DNA of 64,000 nucleotides, taken from the NCBI GenBank assembly GCA_017518185.1, contig JAFWWB010000091.1, positions 1 to 64,000 of the forward strand, read 5' to 3'. Below the pieces are notes generated by a model, which was not told the DNA's origin, did no database searches, and worked only from the letters and a program-made list of their open reading frames with translations. How positions within the stretch are numbered: position 1 is the stretch's first letter; the number at the start of each line of letters is the position of its first letter. The DNA is from Lachnospiraceae bacterium (lineage in GTDB: Bacteria > Bacillota > Clostridia > Lachnospirales > Lachnospiraceae). Positions 15,586-45,150 of this stretch are shown here, piece by piece. The position numbers and the translations under genes were made by a program.

Positions 15586-18500
15586 ATGAAAAGAAAATCA
15601 GGATTTAAGCGAAGGGTTAAGGGTGGACTGTGCATGTTCCTGTGCTGGCTGCTCTGTTTTGGCATGCTCTCGGGGCCGGAGCTCCGGGTTCATGCAGAGG
15701 ATCTGGTACAGACAGAGGGGCCGGTCACCCTGTCGATCCGTCATGAGCATGGAGGAGAAGATTCGGGATGTTACGGACTGGTTCTGGTAAATCCCTGCGG
15801 TGGAAAGTATAATGCCATGACCGGAAACATGAGCGGTTATTACCAATGCAGCAAGTGCGGCAGGATAGTCCATGGGATCCCCAGAACCTATAACCATGAA
15901 GGTGACTACGAGGAGGGCCTGAGCTGTACGGAGAAAAATGCGGGAACCTTCTATATAGAACGCGTCAGCGATGGCAGCGATGTATGGCTGATGGCAGGGC
16001 TTAACGACAGGAACTCGAATGTTATAGGAAGCTATGATATAAGCTGGGATCATGAGGGGGCCCAGGCGAACGGATCGACAAAGATCCTCCATCTTAAGAC
16101 ACCCGGGATCTATACGGCTACTTTGAAATATAAAGACCTGAAATCAGGAGTTAACAAAACGTATACTCTTTCTTATACCGACCTTACCGTTCCGGGACGG
16201 ATCAGCTTTGTGGACAGGGGGACTCTTCTGGAGGAAAGGTCCTTTAAAAGCGGTGAACCGCTGACGGATGTGAACGTTCCGCTAAGGACGGGATATGATT
16301 TCACTGGGTTTTATTCGGGAGATGTCATGTATTACGATAGTGAAGGTCACCCGGCCGTGAGCGGAGCCATTGATATCAAAGACTATACTCTGGAGGCGGG
16401 ATGGGAGGCGAAGAGCTATGCCTTCAGCTATGAGGGAGATAACGGAGCATCGATGCAGGCAGCCATGACCTTCGACGCGCCTCCACCGGAGATCTCGCCC
16501 GTACTTCCGGAGGAAAGAGCGGGGTATACCTTTGACGGTTACAGCCTGGAGGGGATAAAGGTTTATGACAGCAGCCTGCAGCCTGTAGGTGTCTGGACCA
16601 CCGAGCTTCCTGAGGGCAGCTACAGCCTTGAACAGGAATGGATACAGAAGAAGTATAATCTTCATTATGCATGCGATGAGAATGGAGAAGGCGGCACCGA
16701 CAGAGAGCTTGTCTTTGGACAGGAGCTTCCACGGCTCTCTCTTCCGGCGGAGAGACCGGGTTACAGCTTCGATGGTTACTATTATGACGGACGCCGGATC
16801 TATGATGAGAACGGTGATCCGGTCTCGGAGCTTCCGGAGCTGTTTGAAGGCAGCGGTATAAGTCTGGTGAGCATATGGCATCCTAAGCAGTATGTCATCC
16901 ATTACGGCCCTGATGAAAACGGAGACGGGGAAGGAGACCTGGAGTTCAGCCTGGGTTACGGCGATCCCCTGCCGGAGATTTTCCCGGAGCAGCCTGAACA
17001 GAAGCCGGGATACATTTTTACCGGTTACTATATTGACGACATAAAGCTTTATGATGAGAATGGAGAACCTGCGGGAAGCTTCGACCATGACATACCGGAA
17101 GGAAACTTTGAACTGAAGCCGGTATATGTTCCCGAGACTTATACGTTCAGATACGGGAATGATTCTGACGGAGACGGTCTTCCGGACGGAGAGGGAGAGC
17201 TTACCTACGATGAAGTCCCGCCGATACTTTCACTTGATATACCGGCTCCGCGGGAGGGCTATGACTTTCTGGGATTTTTTCTTGGCGATGTTCTTGTTTA
17301 TGACAGTGACGGTGTTCCCCAGGGTGTATGGAAACAGCCTCTGGGGGATGAGATCCCGGTGCTCACTCCGTCCTTCAGCCGGATATTTTATACATTGGAT
17401 TACGGAAACGGTGACAGTGTAGTGGTGGAGTATAACGGAACGCTCCCGCCACTTCCGCTGGATACCGGAAAGACGAAAAAGGGCTACGAGCGCAGCGGTT
17501 ACTTTGCCGGAGATGTGATGCTGTATGATGCTGCGGGGAATCCTGTGGGTGACTGGCCCGGAGAGCTTAAGGAGCGAAGGTATACACTTGAGGAACGCTG
17601 GACGCCGAAAAGCTATACCCTGCGTTACGGCGGCGACAATGACGGAGACGGATTGCCGGATCGATCCGCTGAGGTGACCTACGGGGAGCAGCCGGAACCG
17701 GTACCCGTTCCCGAACTGGGAGAAGGTGAGGTGTTCGATGGCTATTTTTGCGGTGATATTATGGTTTACGATGAAAACGGTATGGCAACGGGAGCCTGGC
17801 TTGAGGACCATGATGCGCTGCTCACGCTTCGCAGTCATAAATATGTTGATCCGGAGGAAGAAGAGCGTCTGAAGGAGCAGGAGCGCCTGGAACAGGAAGA
17901 GCGAGAACGCCTGGAGAGAGAGGAGCAGGAGCGCCTTGAGCAGGAAGAACGAGAACGCCTGGAGAGAGAGGAGCAGGAACGTCTTGAACAGGAGGAACGC
18001 GAACGCCTTGAGCGGGAAGAGCAGGAACGTCTTGAACAGGAGGAACGCGAACGCCTTGAGCGGGAAGAGCAGGAGCGCCTTGAGCAGGAAGAGCGAGAAC
18101 GCCTGGAGAGAGAGGAGCAGGAGCGCCTGGAACAGGAAGAGCGAGAACGCCTTGAGCGGGAAGAGCAGGAGCGTCTGGAACAGGAAGAGAGGGAACGTCT
18201 CGAGAGAGAAGAGCAGGAGCGTCTGGAACAGGAAGAGAGGGAACGTCTCGAGAGAGAAGAGCAGGAGCGCCTGGAACAGGAAGAGCGAGAGCGTCTTGAG
18301 AGAAAAGAACAGGAGCGCCTTGAGCAGGAAGAGCGAGAACGCCTTGAGAGAGAAGAGCAGGAGCGCCTGGAACAGGAAGAGCGGGAACGCCTTGAGAGAG
18401 AAGAGCAGGAGCGCTTGGAACAGGAAGAACGTGAACGTCAGGAACGTGAACGCAGGGAGAAGGATAAGAAGCGCGGGCAGGACAATAGCTCTGCAAGTAC

Positions 18501-19428
18501 CGGGAATGAGAACGGCAGCTCCGCCCCTTCGGTAACCGGGGATGAGAGCGCGCCTACTGCGGCGGACAACGGAAACAGGAACGGATCCGGCAGCGAGAAC
18601 GCCTCTTCCGTAAGCACGGATACGGTGAGCAGCAATACCGTGAGCAATAATTCTGTAAGCGATAATTCGGCCAGTGAAAATGCCGCTTCGGGCAGCAGCA
18701 GCGAAAACCTTGCCCAGGGTAATGCAGGCGCCGGAGGCAATAACGGCGGAAGGAGCGGAAAAAACAGCCGAACGTCTGACCGTGGAGGCGCAGGGAACCG
18801 TGGGATAAGAGAAGCCGAAGCAGATGCCGGCACAGGAGTTTCTTCCTATAATAATAGAAGAAAAGCTGAAGGTGATGACGGGACCGCATTAGCTGAAGCA
18901 GCGGAGGCGGAAAGTGATGCACAGGCCGGAAGTGAGGAAAGTATGAAAACTGACCGCGCCTATGTGAAGGGAGAGAGCCCGGCAGAGATGGCGGAAGAAG
19001 AAAGTCCGGCTATGGCCGCAACGCAGACAGCGAAGACTGAGGAAGCTGCTAAGAAGTCCTCATCCCCTGTCCTTCCGCCTGCGGTACAGACAGTGGCGAA
19101 GGTCGGCGCCGTTACCGCCGGAAGTCTCGGAGGAATACTGGGACTCTACGCGGGCATAGTCTATCTGATGGCGATGGCAGAGGTCGACACCGTATGCACC
19201 AACGGCAGGAAGAAACGTCTTGGCCGCCTGACGATACATTCGGGCAAGGGGCACTCTTTTCTGCTGAGGCTTTCCAGGGAACTGCTGGAACAGTGCGAGA
19301 CCGATAAACTCTGCATAAAGCTTCCCTTCATCTTTGCCCTGAAGAACAGGAACCGTACGATGGTCATCGCGAGCAGGGGTAAGAAACGGGAAGAACCCAT
19401 AAGGAGAGTGATCAGCGTGTGTCTGTGA
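15586..19428 (+). CDS. Large surface protein with B-repeats, charged helical stalk and one C-terminal membrane helix
   Basis: The protein has 1280 residues, with AGGAGG nine bases before the ATG. A signal peptide ends near ELRVHAED. A Cys-containing domain (CSKCGRIVHG) follows, then from about residue 205 seven InlB/Listeria-Bacteroides-like repeats of the form YxFxGYYxGDxxxYDxxGxPxG, several preceded by Asp/Asn-rich loops such as DNDGDGLPD that look calcium-binding. Residues 764-955 are twelve 16-residue units (EQERLEQEERERLERE), a probable single helix or coiled-coil stalk. A Ser/Asn/Gly-rich linker, one membrane helix near 1170-1195 and a C-terminal domain of about 75 residues, predicted cytoplasmic, complete it. 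No LPXTG sorting signal is seen. Two ClpX-like genes follow. The family of the C-terminal domain is unknown to me. Confidence 0.75.
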   Translation: MKRKSGFKRRVKGGLCMFLCWLLCFGMLSGPELRVHAEDLVQTEGPVTLSIRHEHGGEDSGCYGLVLVNPCGGKYNAMTGNMSGYYQCSKCGRIVHGIPRTYNHEGDYEEGLSCTEKNAGTFYIERVSDGSDVWLMAGLNDRNSNVIGSYDISWDHEGAQANGSTKILHLKTPGIYTATLKYKDLKSGVNKTYTLSYTDLTVPGRISFVDRGTLLEERSFKSGEPLTDVNVPLRTGYDFTGFYSGDVMYYDSEGHPAVSGAIDIKDYTLEAGWEAKSYAFSYEGDNGASMQAAMTFDAPPPEISPVLPEERAGYTFDGYSLEGIKVYDSSLQPVGVWTTELPEGSYSLEQEWIQKKYNLHYACDENGEGGTDRELVFGQELPRLSLPAERPGYSFDGYYYDGRRIYDENGDPVSELPELFEGSGISLVSIWHPKQYVIHYGPDENGDGEGDLEFSLGYGDPLPEIFPEQPEQKPGYIFTGYYIDDIKLYDENGEPAGSFDHDIPEGNFELKPVYVPETYTFRYGNDSDGDGLPDGEGELTYDEVPPILSLDIPAPREGYDFLGFFLGDVLVYDSDGVPQGVWKQPLGDEIPVLTPSFSRIFYTLDYGNGDSVVVEYNGTLPPLPLDTGKTKKGYERSGYFAGDVMLYDAAGNPVGDWPGELKERRYTLEERWTPKSYTLRYGGDNDGDGLPDRSAEVTYGEQPEPVPVPELGEGEVFDGYFCGDIMVYDENGMATGAWLEDHDALLTLRSHKYVDPEEEERLKEQERLEQEERERLEREEQERLEQEERERLEREEQERLEQEERERLEREEQERLEQEERERLEREEQERLEQEERERLEREEQERLEQEERERLEREEQERLEQEERERLEREEQERLEQEERERLEREEQERLEQEERERLERKEQERLEQEERERLEREEQERLEQEERERLEREEQERLEQEERERQERERREKDKKRGQDNSSASTGNENGSSAPSVTGDESAPTAADNGNRNGSGSENASSVSTDTVSSNTVSNNSVSDNSASENAASGSSSENLAQGNAGAGGNNGGRSGKNSRTSDRGGAGNRGIREAEADAGTGVSSYNNRRKAEGDDGTALAEAAEAESDAQAGSEESMKTDRAYVKGESPAEMAEEESPAMAATQTAKTEEAAKKSSSPVLPPAVQTVAKVGAVTAGSLGGILGLYAGIVYLMAMAEVDTVCTNGRKKRLGRLTIHSGKGHSFLLRLSRELLEQCETDKLCIKLPFIFALKNRNRTMVIASRGKKREEPIRRVISVCL
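17875..18450 (+). repeat. Twelve in-frame 48-base tandem repeats (stalk)
   Basis: The region is exactly 576 bases, or twelve 48-base units, each encoding EQERLEQEERERLERE with single changes in unit 9 (last residue Lys) and unit 12 (Leu to Gln). Codons differ between units mainly at synonymous sites, so the protein repeat is maintained by selection while the DNA drifts. Copy number is likely to vary between strains. Confidence 0.9.
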
Positions 19429-19525: not shown

Positions 19526-21031
19526 ATGATCAATATCTTCCGGGAAATATCAAGGAGGCGCGGGGGCAGCGATGAGACACAGCGGTCTGATATAGGAAAA
19601 CAGGCCACGGCGGTCTCGGAGTATATGCTGGGGCGCCTGATACTTGTATGTGATGAGATCAGCATGTCGGACGTGGATGCGCTGGGATACCTTGAGATGC
19701 TCTATTTCAGGGTTATGGATGATCACAGTATTCCTGCGGATTCACGTTCACTCCTTGATATTCTGGATAAACTTGAGGACGACCTGGAGTATTCCGTTGA
19801 GATCTTCGGAAGCCGGGCGTCCTTTATATTGGATTTCCTTGAAGCGGACGTGCTCCGGCATGCAACCGACAAGAGTACCAATGACAGGGAGCGGAGCGTG
19901 CTGGGGCGCATCCTTCGTTTGAAGTCGGAGTACTTTGAAAAGGATGATGTGGAGACTGCTGTTACCGTAAGACGGCCGGCCGACATCAAGGCCTATCTGG
20001 ACAGCCATGTCATAGGCCAGGAGATGGCGAAGAGGGCGGTGAGCACCGCCGTATACGGCCATACCAAAAGGAACAGGTATCCGGATAAATCCTTTCCGCC
20101 CAATGTGGTGCTGCTGATAGGCCCTTCCGGCTGCGGAAAGACCGAGATCATGAGAAGGATAAGGGATATCAGCGAATATCCGGTGATCTTTACGGATGTA
20201 TCCTCTCTCGGAGCCAGCCAGTACAGGGGGAGACATAAGGAGGATATACTGCTGGAGCTCTACGAGGCTTCCGGCAGAAAAAAGAGCCTTGCGGAAAAAG
20301 GCATAGTCTTCATGGACGAGTTTGACAAGCTGCTGCTCCCGGCTGTTTCGGACAGGGGCGTCAATGTGCATGACGATGTACAGGCACAGCTTCTCACCAT
20401 GCTGGAAGGCAGCGAGGTGGAGCTGAAATGTGACAACGAGCCGCTGCTCCTGGATACCACCCACATGCTCTTCGTGCTGGCGGGAGCCTTCCAGGGGATA
20501 GACGAGTTCATTAAGGCGGAGAAAAAGGAAAAGGAAAAACAGCCCGGCAGCATAGGCTTTCTTAACCCGCTGGATAAAGAGATGGATCTGGATTTCGTGA
20601 GGGATAACATCGATCATGAAGTCCTTATAAGATATGGCATGAAGAGGGAACTGGCAGGACGTATATCCGACATATGCGTTCTGGAAAGGCTGGACCGGCA
20701 GGATATGCTGCGCATACTCACGGAACCCGAAGATGCCATGATAAAGCTTTACGAACGGGAGCTGAAGCTCTCCGGGGATGCGAAGCTCATTTTTACCGAC
20801 GGAGCCCTTGAGGCCATTGCTGACGAGGCACTTAAGTCCACTTCGGGAGCAAGGGCACTTAAGAGCATACTTGGACGGACCCTTAAGGATGTGATGTATG
20901 AGGCACCCCAGATGAAGGGACTCAAGCGGGTGATCATAAATGAAGATGTGGTGGCAGGGAATGCGCTGCCGCTTTACGATACCGTGGAAGAAAGCAGCGG
21001 ACTGTATACGGAACAGGATATACTCGGATGA
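19526..21031 (+). CDS. ClpX-like AAA+ unfoldase without zinc domain, paralogue 1
   Basis: The protein has 501 residues. The first ~165 residues are a helical domain unrelated to the ClpX zinc finger. From HVIGQEMAKRAVSTAVYGHTKR on it follows ClpX: Walker A GPSGCGKTE (about 199-207), Walker B IVFMDEFDK (about 259), Arg finger in RELAGRISD and sensor 2 in SGARALKSIL. The pore-1 loop, GYVG in ClpX, reads QYRGR (about 231). An IGF tripeptide (near 343) sits where ClpX binds ClpP, so delivery to ClpP remains possible. The ATG at 19526 is the only nearby start after an in-frame stop at 19514. The stop overlaps paralogue 2 (ATGA). The substrate is unknown; the surface protein upstream is a candidate by position. 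Confidence 0.8.
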   Translation: MINIFREISRRRGGSDETQRSDIGKQATAVSEYMLGRLILVCDEISMSDVDALGYLEMLYFRVMDDHSIPADSRSLLDILDKLEDDLEYSVEIFGSRASFILDFLEADVLRHATDKSTNDRERSVLGRILRLKSEYFEKDDVETAVTVRRPADIKAYLDSHVIGQEMAKRAVSTAVYGHTKRNRYPDKSFPPNVVLLIGPSGCGKTEIMRRIRDISEYPVIFTDVSSLGASQYRGRHKEDILLELYEASGRKKSLAEKGIVFMDEFDKLLLPAVSDRGVNVHDDVQAQLLTMLEGSEVELKCDNEPLLLDTTHMLFVLAGAFQGIDEFIKAEKKEKEKQPGSIGFLNPLDKEMDLDFVRDNIDHEVLIRYGMKRELAGRISDICVLERLDRQDMLRILTEPEDAMIKLYERELKLSGDAKLIFTDGALEAIADEALKSTSGARALKSILGRTLKDVMYEAPQMKGLKRVIINEDVVAGNALPLYDTVEESSGLYTEQDILG

Positions 21032-22581
21032 AGAGGATGTTTGGCTTCGGCAGCGAGGAACGCTGCGCTGCCTATGTAAAGGACAAGATAGAGAACCGTG
21101 AAGGCAGGGGGTTTTCCAACAGTGACAGGGTCTATGCCTATCTGAGGATAGTCATCCACTATCTCTATCTCGTGCGTCCGGCGCCGGAGCGCACTCTGGA
21201 CAGCGTGCTCAAGCTCATGGGAGCCAGCTTTTCGGAGAAGGGCTACAGGACACCTTTCTGGGCCATAATCCGTGAGGCATCCGCTTCTTATCCCGGGGAT
21301 GAGATATTTTTTCAGGCCAGACTGGTTGAGAACGATATCACCAACGAGGACATAGACGAGCTCTTTGATTTTATGGAAGAACAGCTGGCGAAGCAGCGGG
21401 ACCGGGCTGAGGCGGAAAGCGACCTTGGACTGCTCTCCATCTGCAGGGTCAGATACAGGCAGAGCAGGGTGCGCAATATCCGCATGCAAAGACGCAGAAA
21501 GAATGCTGAACGCAGATCGGTACCGGCTCATTTGGAAGCCTGTCGTTCCTTTGCGGCGGAGTATTCGCCCCGGAGGATCAAGGAATACCTGGACCGTTTT
21601 GTCATAGGTCAGGAAGATTGTAAAAAGGTGCTTTCCACAGCCATATACAATCATCTCCTGAGAGTGCTCCATCCGGAGGAGAAGCTGCATAAGACGAATG
21701 TGCTGATGGTGGGGCCTTCGGGCTGCGGCAAGACCGAGATGATAAGAAGGTTCACGGATCTTCTTCCCCTGCCGGTGGTGATCACGGATTTCAGCGGCGT
21801 GGTGGCTACGCCCTGGCGCGGACGCAACAAGGAGGAAGCCCTCCTGAACCTTTATCTGAAAGCGGGAAGGGATAAGGGACTCACCGAATGCGGCATAGTA
21901 TTCTGTGATGAGTTTGACAAGATAATCCCCATGAAGGGCTATGGCAGGAACGGGGATATCAATAACGAGCTTCAGGGCCAGCTGCTGGGCATGTTCGAGG
22001 GAACGGAGCTTGAAGTCCCCCTGGGTGACAGGCAGGGCGGGCAGGAGAGCATAAGCATCAACACCGGCAATATACTTTTTATCTGCGCCGGCGCTTTTGA
22101 AGGCCTTGATAAGATAGTAAAAAAGGATGTTTTCAGATCCAATATAGGTTTTTCGGGAGACGTGGGACTGGATAAGGCTTTTGAGATGAAGACCGAAAAC
22201 CTGCGGACGAAACACCTTATAGAGTTCGGGATGAAGCCTGAACTGGCAGGAAGGCTCTCCGCCGTTTCAGTCCTCAAAGGCCTTGACAGGGAGGCACTCA
22301 AGAGAGTGCTCACGGAGCCGGAGGACAGCCTGCTCTCCCGTTATCAGAGGGAGTTTTCACTGGATGAGGACGTGAAGCTGAGCTTTACCGATGAGGCGCT
22401 GGATGTGGTCACGGAAAGGGTCGCATCCATGCGTATAGGAGCAAGAGGCCTGAATACCGTTATGCATGAGATACTTGCGCAGGCGCTTTACGATATCCCT
22501 TCACTTCCCGGAGTGCGGGAGGTGCTGGTTACCGGAAAAGCCGCGAGAATGGAGGGGGACCCTGTATATATACAGGCATAA
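21028..22581 (+). CDS. ClpX-like AAA+ unfoldase without zinc domain, paralogue 2
   Basis: The protein has 517 residues and overlaps paralogue 1 by four bases. Its N-terminal ~190 residues differ from paralogue 1 and end in a very basic segment (RMQRRRKNAERR). The ClpX core starts at RFVIGQEDCKKVLSTAIYNH and contains GPSGCGKTE (about 229), IVFCDEFDK (about 290), PELAGRLSA (Arg finger) and IGARGLNTVM (sensor 2). The pore-1 loop reads PWRGRNKEE, again with an aromatic residue followed by Arg-Gly-Arg instead of GYVG. An IGF motif (about 372) is retained. Different N-domains on a shared core suggest a mixed hexamer or two rings with different adaptors, which is inference. Confidence 0.8.
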   Translation: MKRMFGFGSEERCAAYVKDKIENREGRGFSNSDRVYAYLRIVIHYLYLVRPAPERTLDSVLKLMGASFSEKGYRTPFWAIIREASASYPGDEIFFQARLVENDITNEDIDELFDFMEEQLAKQRDRAEAESDLGLLSICRVRYRQSRVRNIRMQRRRKNAERRSVPAHLEACRSFAAEYSPRRIKEYLDRFVIGQEDCKKVLSTAIYNHLLRVLHPEEKLHKTNVLMVGPSGCGKTEMIRRFTDLLPLPVVITDFSGVVATPWRGRNKEEALLNLYLKAGRDKGLTECGIVFCDEFDKIIPMKGYGRNGDINNELQGQLLGMFEGTELEVPLGDRQGGQESISINTGNILFICAGAFEGLDKIVKKDVFRSNIGFSGDVGLDKAFEMKTENLRTKHLIEFGMKPELAGRLSAVSVLKGLDREALKRVLTEPEDSLLSRYQREFSLDEDVKLSFTDEALDVVTERVASMRIGARGLNTVMHEILAQALYDIPSLPGVREVLVTGKAARMEGDPVYIQA

Positions 22582-22587
22582 AAGGGC

Positions 22588-24039
22588 ATGAAGAAAGAGG
22601 GGGAAAAGAACGTAAAACTGCAGCTGGATATACTGCTGCGCACGGTGCTGCCGATGCTCCTTATGGCGGTGCTGATAGCGGCTGCGGCCATGTTCAGCGC
22701 CGGGGCATCCATGGAAAAGGAGCTCTTCAGTTCGCTGGATGCGGTGGCGTCCACCGTGGCGGCGGGTTATGACGAGCTCTATCCGGGAGATTACAAGGCA
22801 AGACAGGACAGCAGCACCTTTTATCTCTTCAAGGGTGATAAGGAGGTAACGGGGCGTTATGTCTACATAGACCGGATAGCGGAAGAAAGCGGAATGGAGA
22901 TATCCCTTCTGTGGCAGGATGCGCGTATCATCACCACGGTAAAGGATAAGGACGGTGTCCGCTATATCGGCAGCGGGGTGAACAGCTATGTGTACACCGA
23001 GATGAAAACGAAGCAGCGGATACTTCATTATGATAATGTGCTCATTGGAAACGAAGGGTACTTTGTCAGTTACCTGCCCCTCTTTAATCAGGATGGAAGC
23101 TTCGTGGGCATGGTGGGTACCGCCAAGCCTTCTTCCGAGGTCAAAAAGGAAAAGTGGTCCGCGGCAGGCCCCATCCTTTTCATCACCGTTCTGGGACTCC
23201 TTGTGGCGGCTTTCATCAGCATCCGTTATACCAATGCCATGGTGGCGGATATAGACAGGATACAGGCTTTCCTCAGCGGCATGGTCTCCGGTAAGCTGGA
23301 CAATGAGATGCCGGACAGCGTTTTGAAGAGGAAGGATGAGATAGGAGTGACTGCCGGAGACGTCACAAGAATGCAAAATGCCGTCAGGATACTTATTGAG
23401 TGCGATCCCTTGACAACTCTTTACAATAGACGCTCCGGTGATGCCAGGTTCAAGAAGCTCCAGAGACGTTCAGACCAGACCGGTCTGCCCTTTGCCGTTG
23501 CTCTCGGCGACATAGACTTTTTCAAGAAAGTCAATGATACCTATGGACATGATGCCGGAGATATAGTATTAAAATATGTGGCGAAGGAATTGAAGGACCT
23601 CATGGCCGGCCGCGGCTTTGCCGTGCGCTGGGGCGGTGAGGAATTCCTGCTGGTATTTGAAGAGATGACCCTGGTGGCGGCAGCGGCATCCATCGAAGAT
23701 TTCCTTGACAGGATAAGGGCGGCGACGCTGCACCATGACGGGAATGTCATAAGGATCACCATGAGCGTGGGCCTTGTTGAGGGTGCGCCCGGGCTCAGCG
23801 CTGATGATATGATCAAGGCGGCGGATGAAAAGCTCTATTATGGTAAGGAGCACGGCAGGAACCAGCTGGTGGTCACTCCGGGAGAAGAGCAGCCCGATTA
23901 CAGGGAGCTCCTGAAGCAGCAGTCCGGCAGGACCGAGACAGTGATAACCTTTGCCGAAGAGTATCTGGATTCGGAGAACCTGATGCAGCTGCTCTCCGAT
24001 AACGCTCTCAGGGATATTGAGAACGGGGATGAAGAATGA
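22588..24039 (+). CDS. Membrane diguanylate cyclase with extracellular sensor
   Basis: This protein has 483 residues and starts seven bases after the ClpX-like gene. A membrane helix (about 15-37), an extracellular Cache-like sensor of about 150 residues, a second helix (about 190-213) and a HAMP-like linker lead into a GGDEF domain. The active-site loop is RWGGEEFLLVF, which is catalytically competent, and GDIDFFKKVNDTYGHDAGD is also canonical. I see no RxxD inhibitory site before it. It should make cyclic di-GMP from GTP in response to an outside signal. A C-terminal tail of about 55 residues is extra to the domain. tRNA-Leu begins five bases after its stop. Confidence 0.88.
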   Translation: MKKEGEKNVKLQLDILLRTVLPMLLMAVLIAAAAMFSAGASMEKELFSSLDAVASTVAAGYDELYPGDYKARQDSSTFYLFKGDKEVTGRYVYIDRIAEESGMEISLLWQDARIITTVKDKDGVRYIGSGVNSYVYTEMKTKQRILHYDNVLIGNEGYFVSYLPLFNQDGSFVGMVGTAKPSSEVKKEKWSAAGPILFITVLGLLVAAFISIRYTNAMVADIDRIQAFLSGMVSGKLDNEMPDSVLKRKDEIGVTAGDVTRMQNAVRILIECDPLTTLYNRRSGDARFKKLQRRSDQTGLPFAVALGDIDFFKKVNDTYGHDAGDIVLKYVAKELKDLMAGRGFAVRWGGEEFLLVFEEMTLVAAAASIEDFLDRIRAATLHHDGNVIRITMSVGLVEGAPGLSADDMIKAADEKLYYGKEHGRNQLVVTPGEEQPDYRELLKQQSGRTETVITFAEEYLDSENLMQLLSDNALRDIENGDEE

Positions 24040-44420: not shown

Positions 44421-44526
44421 GAAATGTGCTTAAAAATCACTGAAATAGCTTGCATTTGAAAAAAATATAATGTAAACTGTTTTTCGAATAATGATTTCAA
44501 GCATTTCCAAAACGGAGGAGAAGAAA

Positions 44527-45150
44527 ATGGAAGCTGAAGAAAAGAAGGCTGTTAAGAAGCCTGCTGCAAAAAAGGCTGCAACGAAGAAGGCCGAGGAGAA
44601 GAAGCCTGCTGCAAAGAAAGCTTCTGCAGTAAAGAGTACTACCGCAAAGAAGACTACCGCAGCAAAGAAGGCTACTGCTACAAAGAGCACCACTGCTAAG
44701 AAGGCCGCTGCTACAAAGGCAGCTGCAGAAAAGAAGACCACTGCTGCAAAGGCAACAACCGCAAAGAAGGCAACCGCAGCAAAGAAGACCACTGCTGCAA
44801 AGGCAACAACCGCGAAGAAGGCAACCGCAGCAAAGAAGACTACTGCAAAGGCTGCTACCGCAAAGAAGGCAACCGCAGCAAAGAAGACTACCGCTGCAAA
44901 GGCAACGACCGCGAAGAAGGAAACTGCAGCGAAGAAGACTACTGCAAAGGCTGCTACCGCAAAGAAGGCAACCGCAGCAAAGAAGACCACTGCTGCAAAG
45001 AGCACTGCAAAGAAGGCTACAGCTGCTAAGACTACTGCAGCAAAGAAGCCCGCAGCAAAGAAGGCAACCGCTGCAAAGGCAACAAGCGCAAAGAAGACCA
45101 CCGCGGCAAAGAAGCCTGCAGCAAAGAAGACTACAAAGAAAGAGAACTGA
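44527..45150 (+). CDS. Histone H1-like Lys/Ala/Thr-rich protein
   Basis: The protein has 207 residues, with GGAGGAG six bases before the ATG at 44527. After a short acidic N-terminus (MEAEEKK) it is almost only Lys, Ala and Thr in repeats such as KKTTAAKATTAKKATAAKK. This is the composition of the H1 C-terminal tail and of bacterial H1-like proteins such as chlamydial HctB and Pseudomonas AlgP, which bind DNA or RNA through charge. It should be a disordered nucleoid-associated protein. A TATAAT (44466-44471) lies upstream without a clear -35. A terminator follows, so it is a single-gene unit between metabolic genes. Confidence 0.85.
   Translation: MEAEEKKAVKKPAAKKAATKKAEEKKPAAKKASAVKSTTAKKTTAAKKATATKSTTAKKAAATKAAAEKKTTAAKATTAKKATAAKKTTAAKATTAKKATAAKKTTAKAATAKKATAAKKTTAAKATTAKKETAAKKTTAKAATAKKATAAKKTTAAKSTAKKATAAKTTAAKKPAAKKATAAKATSAKKTTAAKKPAAKKTTKKEN

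Follow-up and report, generated by a model that had tools for sequence, protein, structure and literature searches.

Can a ClpX-type unfoldase be built from two different gene products? ClpX is regarded as a homohexamer, and the question was raised by a Lachnospiraceae bacterium (assembly GCA_017518185.1) in which a 64,000-nucleotide stretch of contig JAFWWB010000091.1 (positions 1 to 64,000, hereafter the window) carries two overlapping genes for ClpX-like AAA+ proteins, here called CX1 and CX2 (Table 1). An earlier note, made from the letters of the window, had described them as tandem ClpX cores devoid of the zinc-binding domain (ZBD), with different N-domains, a preserved IGF tripeptide for ClpP docking and altered pore loops, and had proposed a common altered substrate grip, perhaps in a mixed ring. 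Our data point to an obligate pair, most likely forming a mixed, ClpP-docking ring of ClpX type with a new client selection, a reading to which we give, from sequence comparisons, a probability of about 0.5. Natural AAA+ heterohexamers such as Pex1/Pex6, where two related subunits share one ring, served as working analogy; Pex1/Pex6 are eukaryotic type II AAA+ proteins, a family other than that of CX1 and CX2.

Open reading frame (ORF) coordinates confirmed that the start of CX2 overlaps the stop of CX1 by 4 nt. Pfam domains AAA_2 and D2-small were found in both proteins, one stretch each, and ClpX was the top NCBIfam model for CX1 (241.8 and 220.9 bits) as for CX2 (272.7 and 243.1 bits), with scores that missed the ClpX equivalog cut-offs of 359 and 370.75 bits (NF003745 and TIGR00382). 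A Pfam search to E 0.1 gave no zf-C4_ClpX match in either window protein. Coordinates, model matches and the missing zinc domain thus agree with the description of two overlapping ZBD-less ClpX-core genes. The closest solved relatives were ClpX chains, the best alignment beginning at residue 147 of CX1 and 181 of CX2. With canonical ClpX (PDB 6vfs, 8yd0 and 6wr2) the two proteins have in common the AAA+ core, the catalytic residues, an IGF-type docking loop and a pore-1 position that aligns without gaps; they differ from it by the absence of the zinc domain and of the RKH motif, by an altered pore-1 loop, by scores below cut-off and by being two genes that are always met together. CX1 and CX2 belong to the wider group of ClpX-type AAA+ cores, their best homology being to ClpX cores and their active-site residues being intact. 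Since core and docking loop are retained while the zinc domain, the RKH motif, GYVG and the curated scores are not, the pair is a variant of the ClpX kind rather than canonical ClpX.

These features were conserved over considerable divergence. Homologues were 34-68% identical to the window proteins and, counting the latter, gave 33 CX1 and 32 CX2 rows, in all of which the Walker A Lys, the Walker B Asp-Glu, the Arg finger and the sensor-2 Arg were invariant. Conservation across so many rows means that neither chance nor sequencing error is the cause of the features. Measured with script-chosen start codons, the two genes overlapped or abutted in 27 of 32 loci, of which the window is one.

The pairing itself was recurrent. 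Scanning genome contigs for homologues with CX1 as query retrieved 38 loci; the 32 close relatives (L001-L032) all had CX1 beside CX2, and the others (L033-L038) held remoter ClpX-like proteins. Homologues occurring always singly in unrelated contexts, which the earlier note had set against its own idea, were not seen. Of 35 genomes of the genus, 31 had the pair, each with both members, and in none did CX1 or CX2 stand alone; scan loci and genus genomes being partly the same assemblies, these are not two independent counts. A second, diverged pair stood alongside the main pair in two genomes, G403 (L032) and G407 (L031). Of 397 genomes sampled from the family (334 genera), two had the CX1 N-domain, and both belong to the window's genus; it was not detected in G335, a third sampled genome of that genus, or in the 394 sampled Lachnospiraceae genomes outside it. 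A sample of 391 genomes of the class gave the CX2 N-domain once, in the window's own genome. The pair-less genomes of the genus were 99% (G335), 94% (G423), 77% (G398) and 67% (G399) complete. Near-confinement to one genus, as sampled, and absence from the near-complete G335 and G423 would fit lineage-specific ClpX duplicates under relaxed constraint, with no dedicated new function, an explanation made very improbable by the invariance of catalytic residues over deep divergence, by the conserved positions of the N-domains and by retention in most of the genus. In UBA7480 (L020:9415-10973 and L066), CX2 and a further ClpX-type gene, ClpX3, were both broken into ORF pieces; in L020 runs of two Ns occur at six places, one of which lies within CX2, and the split is perhaps an assembly gap rather than decay.

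One change within the core concerned the pore-1 loop. In an alignment to solved ClpX that was free of gaps at this position, QYRGR of CX1 and PWRGR of CX2 fell on GYVG. The typical sequences were Q[YF]RGR in CX1 and PW[KR]GR in CX2, and GYVG was absent. CX1 loops began with Gln, followed by an aromatic residue in 32 of 33 rows (Tyr 18, Phe 13, Trp 1; Ser 1), then Arg (30/33), Gly (32/33) and Arg or Lys (33/33). CX2 loops began with Pro or Gln, and all 32 continued with Trp or Tyr, Lys or Arg (28 and 4, respectively), Gly, and Arg or Lys. Relative to GYVGE, the first Gly, Val and Glu are replaced while the aromatic residue and the second Gly are retained; the claim that an aromatic residue plus Arg-Gly-Arg had replaced GYVG was right as to motifs and place, but the aromatic is not new and the residue after Trp in CX2 is mostly Lys. 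According to passages of a structural study of Escherichia coli ClpX, Tyr153 and Val154 both touch substrate (PMC7112951), so that the change from Val to Arg or Lys sits at a substrate contact.

An aromatic-basic-Gly loop is not peculiar to the pair. In the same genome, three HSP100 proteins have first-ring pore loops that read AKYRGEFEERL, SRYRGEFEERL and TQYRGDFEKRL, the first belonging to a ClpB that scored above the ClpB cut-off and the other two to proteins that we take, on our own reading, as ClpC- and ClpA-like. The first AAA+ rings of ClpA/ClpB/ClpC-type proteins thus resemble CX1 and CX2 in this loop (KYRG, RYRG, QYRG), but HSP100 proteins have two AAA+ modules per chain and CX1 and CX2 a single one, of ClpX type; the likeness is likely a convergence. 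Neither was the loop uniform, the three most diverged CX1 having QYAGG, QWGYK and QSAGK. Of the common altered grip, the shared basic pore loops therefore stand, and uniqueness and uniformity do not.

The IGF tripeptides of both proteins aligned with the IGF loop of ClpX, as had been claimed; a faulty pore or IGF assignment, the other objection anticipated in the earlier note, was thus not borne out by the alignment. The docking tripeptide was [IMF]G[FY] in 33/33 CX1 and [IML]GF in 28/32 CX2. The third ClpP contact (Val274 in E. coli) was mainly Leu in CX1 and mainly Val, Leu or Ile in CX2, in a count that is rough because the regular expression caught an earlier tripeptide in five CX1 rows. 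A single ClpP was detected in the genome, directly before canonical ClpX and on a contig other than that of the pair, and a ring formed by the pair would probably dock on it, as far as conserved motifs can indicate.

The input side showed the largest change from ClpX, zinc domain and RKH motif having been lost and new N-domains gained. The RKH motif was not present in the corresponding loop of any of the 33 CX1 or 32 CX2, and the stretch around it, counted by eye, comprised 24-25 residues in CX1, where it was distinctly shorter, 29 in the window's CX2 and 31 in the genome's ClpX. The RKH loop is said, in parts of the E. coli literature, to be unique to ClpX-family enzymes (PMC7112951) and to be essential to ssrA recognition (PMC7112952). 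No Pfam match was found to E 1 for the N-domain of the window's CX1, and that of its CX2 had one sub-threshold match, DUF4240 (E 0.12). Among homologues, Pfam matches were weak and scattered, the commonest being Ribosomal_S7e in 8 of 33 CX1 (best E 0.0035) and DUF4240 in 6 of 32 CX2 (best E 0.002). Both N-domains were nevertheless conserved within the main clade, with conserved positions. A profile-profile comparison of the two gave a probability of 5.5% (P-value 0.007); as judged from this they are not clearly related to each other, and the earlier statement that the N-domains differ was upheld.

That the two proteins act together was suggested by their shared history. In a tree of 57 cores, CX1 (100/99), CX2 (96/84), ClpX3 (98/97) and canonical ClpX (100/97) formed separate clades, and each of the three diverged pairs (L030-L032) had one member in the CX1 clade and one in the CX2 clade. 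The genomes of L031 and L032 each hold a main pair besides, and the splitting of these second pairs over both clades indicates that pairs were copied or moved as units. Over 19 loci, CX1 and CX2 distances correlated at 0.97, and at 0.71 (permutation p 0.001) as a partial correlation given ClpX3 and DGC1, the adjacent diguanylate cyclase. The partial correlations with DGC1 were 0.21 for CX1 (p 0.07) and 0.18 for CX2 (p 0.10), and that between CX2 and ClpX3 was 0.08. Losses were complementary as well: four CX2 had no docking tripeptide (L027 DSF, L030 GGF, L031 QGF, L032 GSF) and their CX1 partners all retained it, while the only CX1 without a pore aromatic, that of L032, has a CX2 partner that keeps Trp. 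Each lost loop feature being kept by the partner, this is the pattern expected of shared rings. The same losses should disable homohexamers that depend on ClpP; together with the strong co-variation and with the absence of lone members from 35 genus genomes, they make it rather improbable that CX1 and CX2 are two separate homohexameric unfoldases of one pathway held together by operon selection, an arrangement with which the complete active sites of both proteins and their differing N-domains would agree.

CX1 and CX2 are accordingly pictured here as obligate partners, probably translated together, in a single unfoldase that is specific to the lineage and belongs to the ClpX branch, with a mixed hexameric ring as its most likely assembly. 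With their intact residues, both subunits would bind and hydrolyse ATP; the aromatic-basic-Gly pore-1 loops would pull substrate in the manner of HSP100 first rings, and the IGF-type loops would dock the ring on the detected ClpP. Client choice would have shifted from the lost zinc domain and RKH loop to the two new N-domains and, these two elements being lost, clients that are ssrA-tagged or delivered by ZBD adaptors should not be taken. A more specific version, possible but held tentatively, divides the labour: CX1 would mainly provide ClpP-docking loops, CX2 mainly pulling Trp pore loops, and the two N-domains would jointly select clients, so that one ClpP would gain another specificity, independent of the first.

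Several observations weigh against a mixed ring docked on ClpP. Of 65 rows, 17 have Met, Leu or Phe at position 268, the first of the docking tripeptide, and another 4 have Gly, Asp or Gln; the docking loop had 47 residues in 32/33 CX1 and 41-43 in 31/32 CX2, compared with 44 for ClpX of the same genome. For the E. coli enzyme, sections of the structural study report that ClpP binding suffers from I268L and from altered loop length (PMC7112951). Such data are shared with the main rival, by which a ring, mixed or single-type, would remodel or extract proteins independently of ClpP, like ClpX alone or HSP100 disaggregases, YRG-type pore loops being part of the remodelling style. To the unusual loop lengths and the sensitivity of docking to I268L it adds the pore-loop resemblance to HSP100 first rings, the loss of the tripeptide from 4 of 32 CX2 and the different contig of the only ClpP detected; it seems unlikely, given an IGF-type tripeptide kept by all CX1 and 28 CX2 despite their divergence and a third contact position that is chiefly aliphatic. 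As to the ring being shared, CX1 and CX2 were supported as a single clade at 79/51 only, and residual correlations between DGC1 and ClpX3 (0.38, p 0.001) and between CX1 and ClpX3 (0.32, p 0.006) imply that some residual correlation arises without a shared ring; a common fold can be enough to make the distances of two proteins correlate, even if they never touch. Complementary decay was seen in few and partly related cases, L030-L032 being deep branches that may represent two or three events. The first scan, having CX1 as query, was blind to a lone CX2, which could be revealed by the genus search and the class sample only. Lastly, DGC1 and the upstream gene Sec were present without the pair in G335, and DGC1 was not adjacent in L031 and L032, the diverged pairs with enough flank, which makes neighbours a weak guide to clients.

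Those neighbours were nonetheless regular. DGC1 lay within 118 nt of the pair in 26 of 28 measured loci (185 nt in L028, 1768 nt in L012; L020 was outside the measurement), and it had GGEEF in 30/30 rows, in which a simple pattern detected no I-site. Its tail after GGDEF was variable, with a short conserved helix-like stretch of the type E.LM..LS.N (window, L001-L029 homologues and L087:4184-5662); the tail was considered as a docking site for the pair and rejected, a similar stretch being present in the DGC1 of pair-less G335. Sec has a Pfam repeat match below its cut-off, a signal peptide and a C-terminal membrane segment, both assigned by eye, and a conserved tail. This protein also carries a long EERERLEREEQERLEQ repeat, and in G414 a relative of it adjoins ClpX3, about 13 kb from the pair. 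Of the 31 genomes with the pair, 25 carry ClpX3 itself on the pair's own contig, about 20 kb away or less, and G402 has it in pieces; in the window's genome it was on another contig. In G335 the row, read by eye, was HtrA-ClpX3-Sec-DGC1-MATE. This pair-less row, and a ClpX3 that is not always near, suggest that the pair lies within an older neighbourhood of envelope, proteolysis and cyclic di-GMP (c-di-GMP) genes, without being needed for the row or constantly part of it. Membrane or c-di-GMP components of this neighbourhood might be among the clients.

Table 1. Positions in the window of the CX1/CX2 gene pair, its sequence motifs and its neighbours
Feature	Position	Strand	Remarks
Sec	15586..19428	+	Listeria-Bacteroides-type repeats; upstream of pair in 19/29 main loci
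CX1	19526..21031	+	501 aa ClpX-type AAA+ protein, first pair member; 32 homologues aligned
CX1 N-domain	19526..19981	+	~150 aa, no known family
CX1 Walker A	20120..20143	+	GPSGCGKT
CX1 pore-1 loop	20219..20233	+	QYRGR, aligned to ClpX GYVGE
CX1 docking tripeptide	20552..20560	+	IGF, ClpP-docking loop
CX2	21028..22581	+	517 aa ClpX-type AAA+ protein, second pair member; 31 homologues aligned
CX2 N-domain	21028..21567	+	~180 aa, no known family
CX2 Walker A	21712..21735	+	GPSGCGKT
CX2 pore-1 loop	21811..21825	+	PWRGR, aligned to ClpX GYVGE
CX2 docking tripeptide	22144..22152	+	IGF, ClpP-docking loop
DGC1	22588..24039	+	sCache_3_3 + GGDEF (GGEEF) diguanylate cyclase; downstream of pair in 29/29 main loci (L001-L029)

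A search of the whole genome for ClpX-type proteins gave four strong places, canonical ClpX (contig C89), ClpX3 (contig C46), CX2 and CX1, plus two weak ones, and the first two both scored above the ClpX cut-off. ClpX3 (L040:1000-2577, G000 contig C46) has a GYIGD pore loop and a zinc domain (zf-C4_ClpX, E 3.7e-6, 27.2 bits where the cut-off is 27), and stands beside an HtrA-like protease. Its Walker A in the window's genome reads GCGKA, GKT being found in 20 of 21 ClpX3 rows. ClpX3 was also encountered in seven fetched loci of other Lachnospiraceae genera, four of them with an adjoining HtrA or subtilase. An origin of the pair from this ClpX3 was not supported, ClpX and ClpX3 grouping together (99/97) with CX1 and CX2 outside, a rejection less than certain in view of the long branches and of the root chosen. 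In the ClpX3 tree, pair-less G335 stood beside L028 (86/77) and pair-less G423 near the base, where its position was unresolved; the pair may have been gained or lost. A phage or mobile origin was likewise rejected: CX2 matched 74 phage records, none covering 80% of it, and the phage matches listed (eight rows) began at residue 153 or later, hence in the core only. Viral contigs gave at least 56 matches and, among the matches listed, these began at residue 122 or later. PHROG 4339, of unknown function, matched the cores of both proteins, and PADLOC matches on them look like generic AAA matches.

Two extra weak matches in the genus (G409 C47 and G401 C116) were dismissed as lone members, their nearest relative being ClpX at 52% and 78% identity. 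In one genus genome, a short ClpX-type protein (L151, G409:C47:138500-143500) has a pore loop that reads GYVG and, at the RKH site, RKN; it is a 363-residue open stretch, 52% identical to the ClpX of that genome over 339 residues. L034-L038 formed a separate clade of remote ClpX-like proteins (100/100) from Lachnospiraceae and Eubacterium; in L034 and L038 the gene adjoins one for a small helix-turn-helix protein, as seen by eye. In Eubacterium sp. MSJ-21 (L036:6988-12637), the gene for a remote ClpX-like ATPase is part of a run of three, with genes for another AAA+ protein and for a GGDEF-EAL-like protein, the latter also assigned by eye; this may be an independent case of AAA+ pairs linked to c-di-GMP genes. 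Elsewhere in the window (44491-45150), a protein of 219 aa, rich in Lys, Ala and Thr, resembles, by eye, a histone-H1-like DNA-binding protein.

The closest precedent was found in Myxococcus xanthus, whose own ClpX3 is described, in the portions of the report consulted, as lacking both N-domain and RKH motif and as encoded by an isolated gene, deletion of which inhibits growth at high temperature (PMC11423568). It shares with CX1 and CX2 the absence of the zinc N-domain and of RKH, but it has no N-terminal domain and is not one of a pair. No tandem pair of ZBD-less ClpX genes was found in the open-access PubMed Central literature, which is not proof of absence in print. The link to c-di-GMP recalls Caulobacter, where ClpXP is described, in extracts of one article, as using PopA-RcdA-CpdR adaptors under c-di-GMP control of substrate choice (PMC8973945); there c-di-GMP is bound by an adaptor, whereas at the CX locus an active-looking cyclase gene lies beside the unfoldase genes, and no sign of contact between the products was found. 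Structural work on the roles of ClpX subunits has, as far as the cited sections tell, used artificially linked single-chain ClpX (PMC7112951). A natural two-gene ClpX, if true, would make the division of docking, gripping and client choice readable from sequence, and would show how a bacterium can equip its one ClpP with a further specificity while dispensing with zinc domain and RKH loop.

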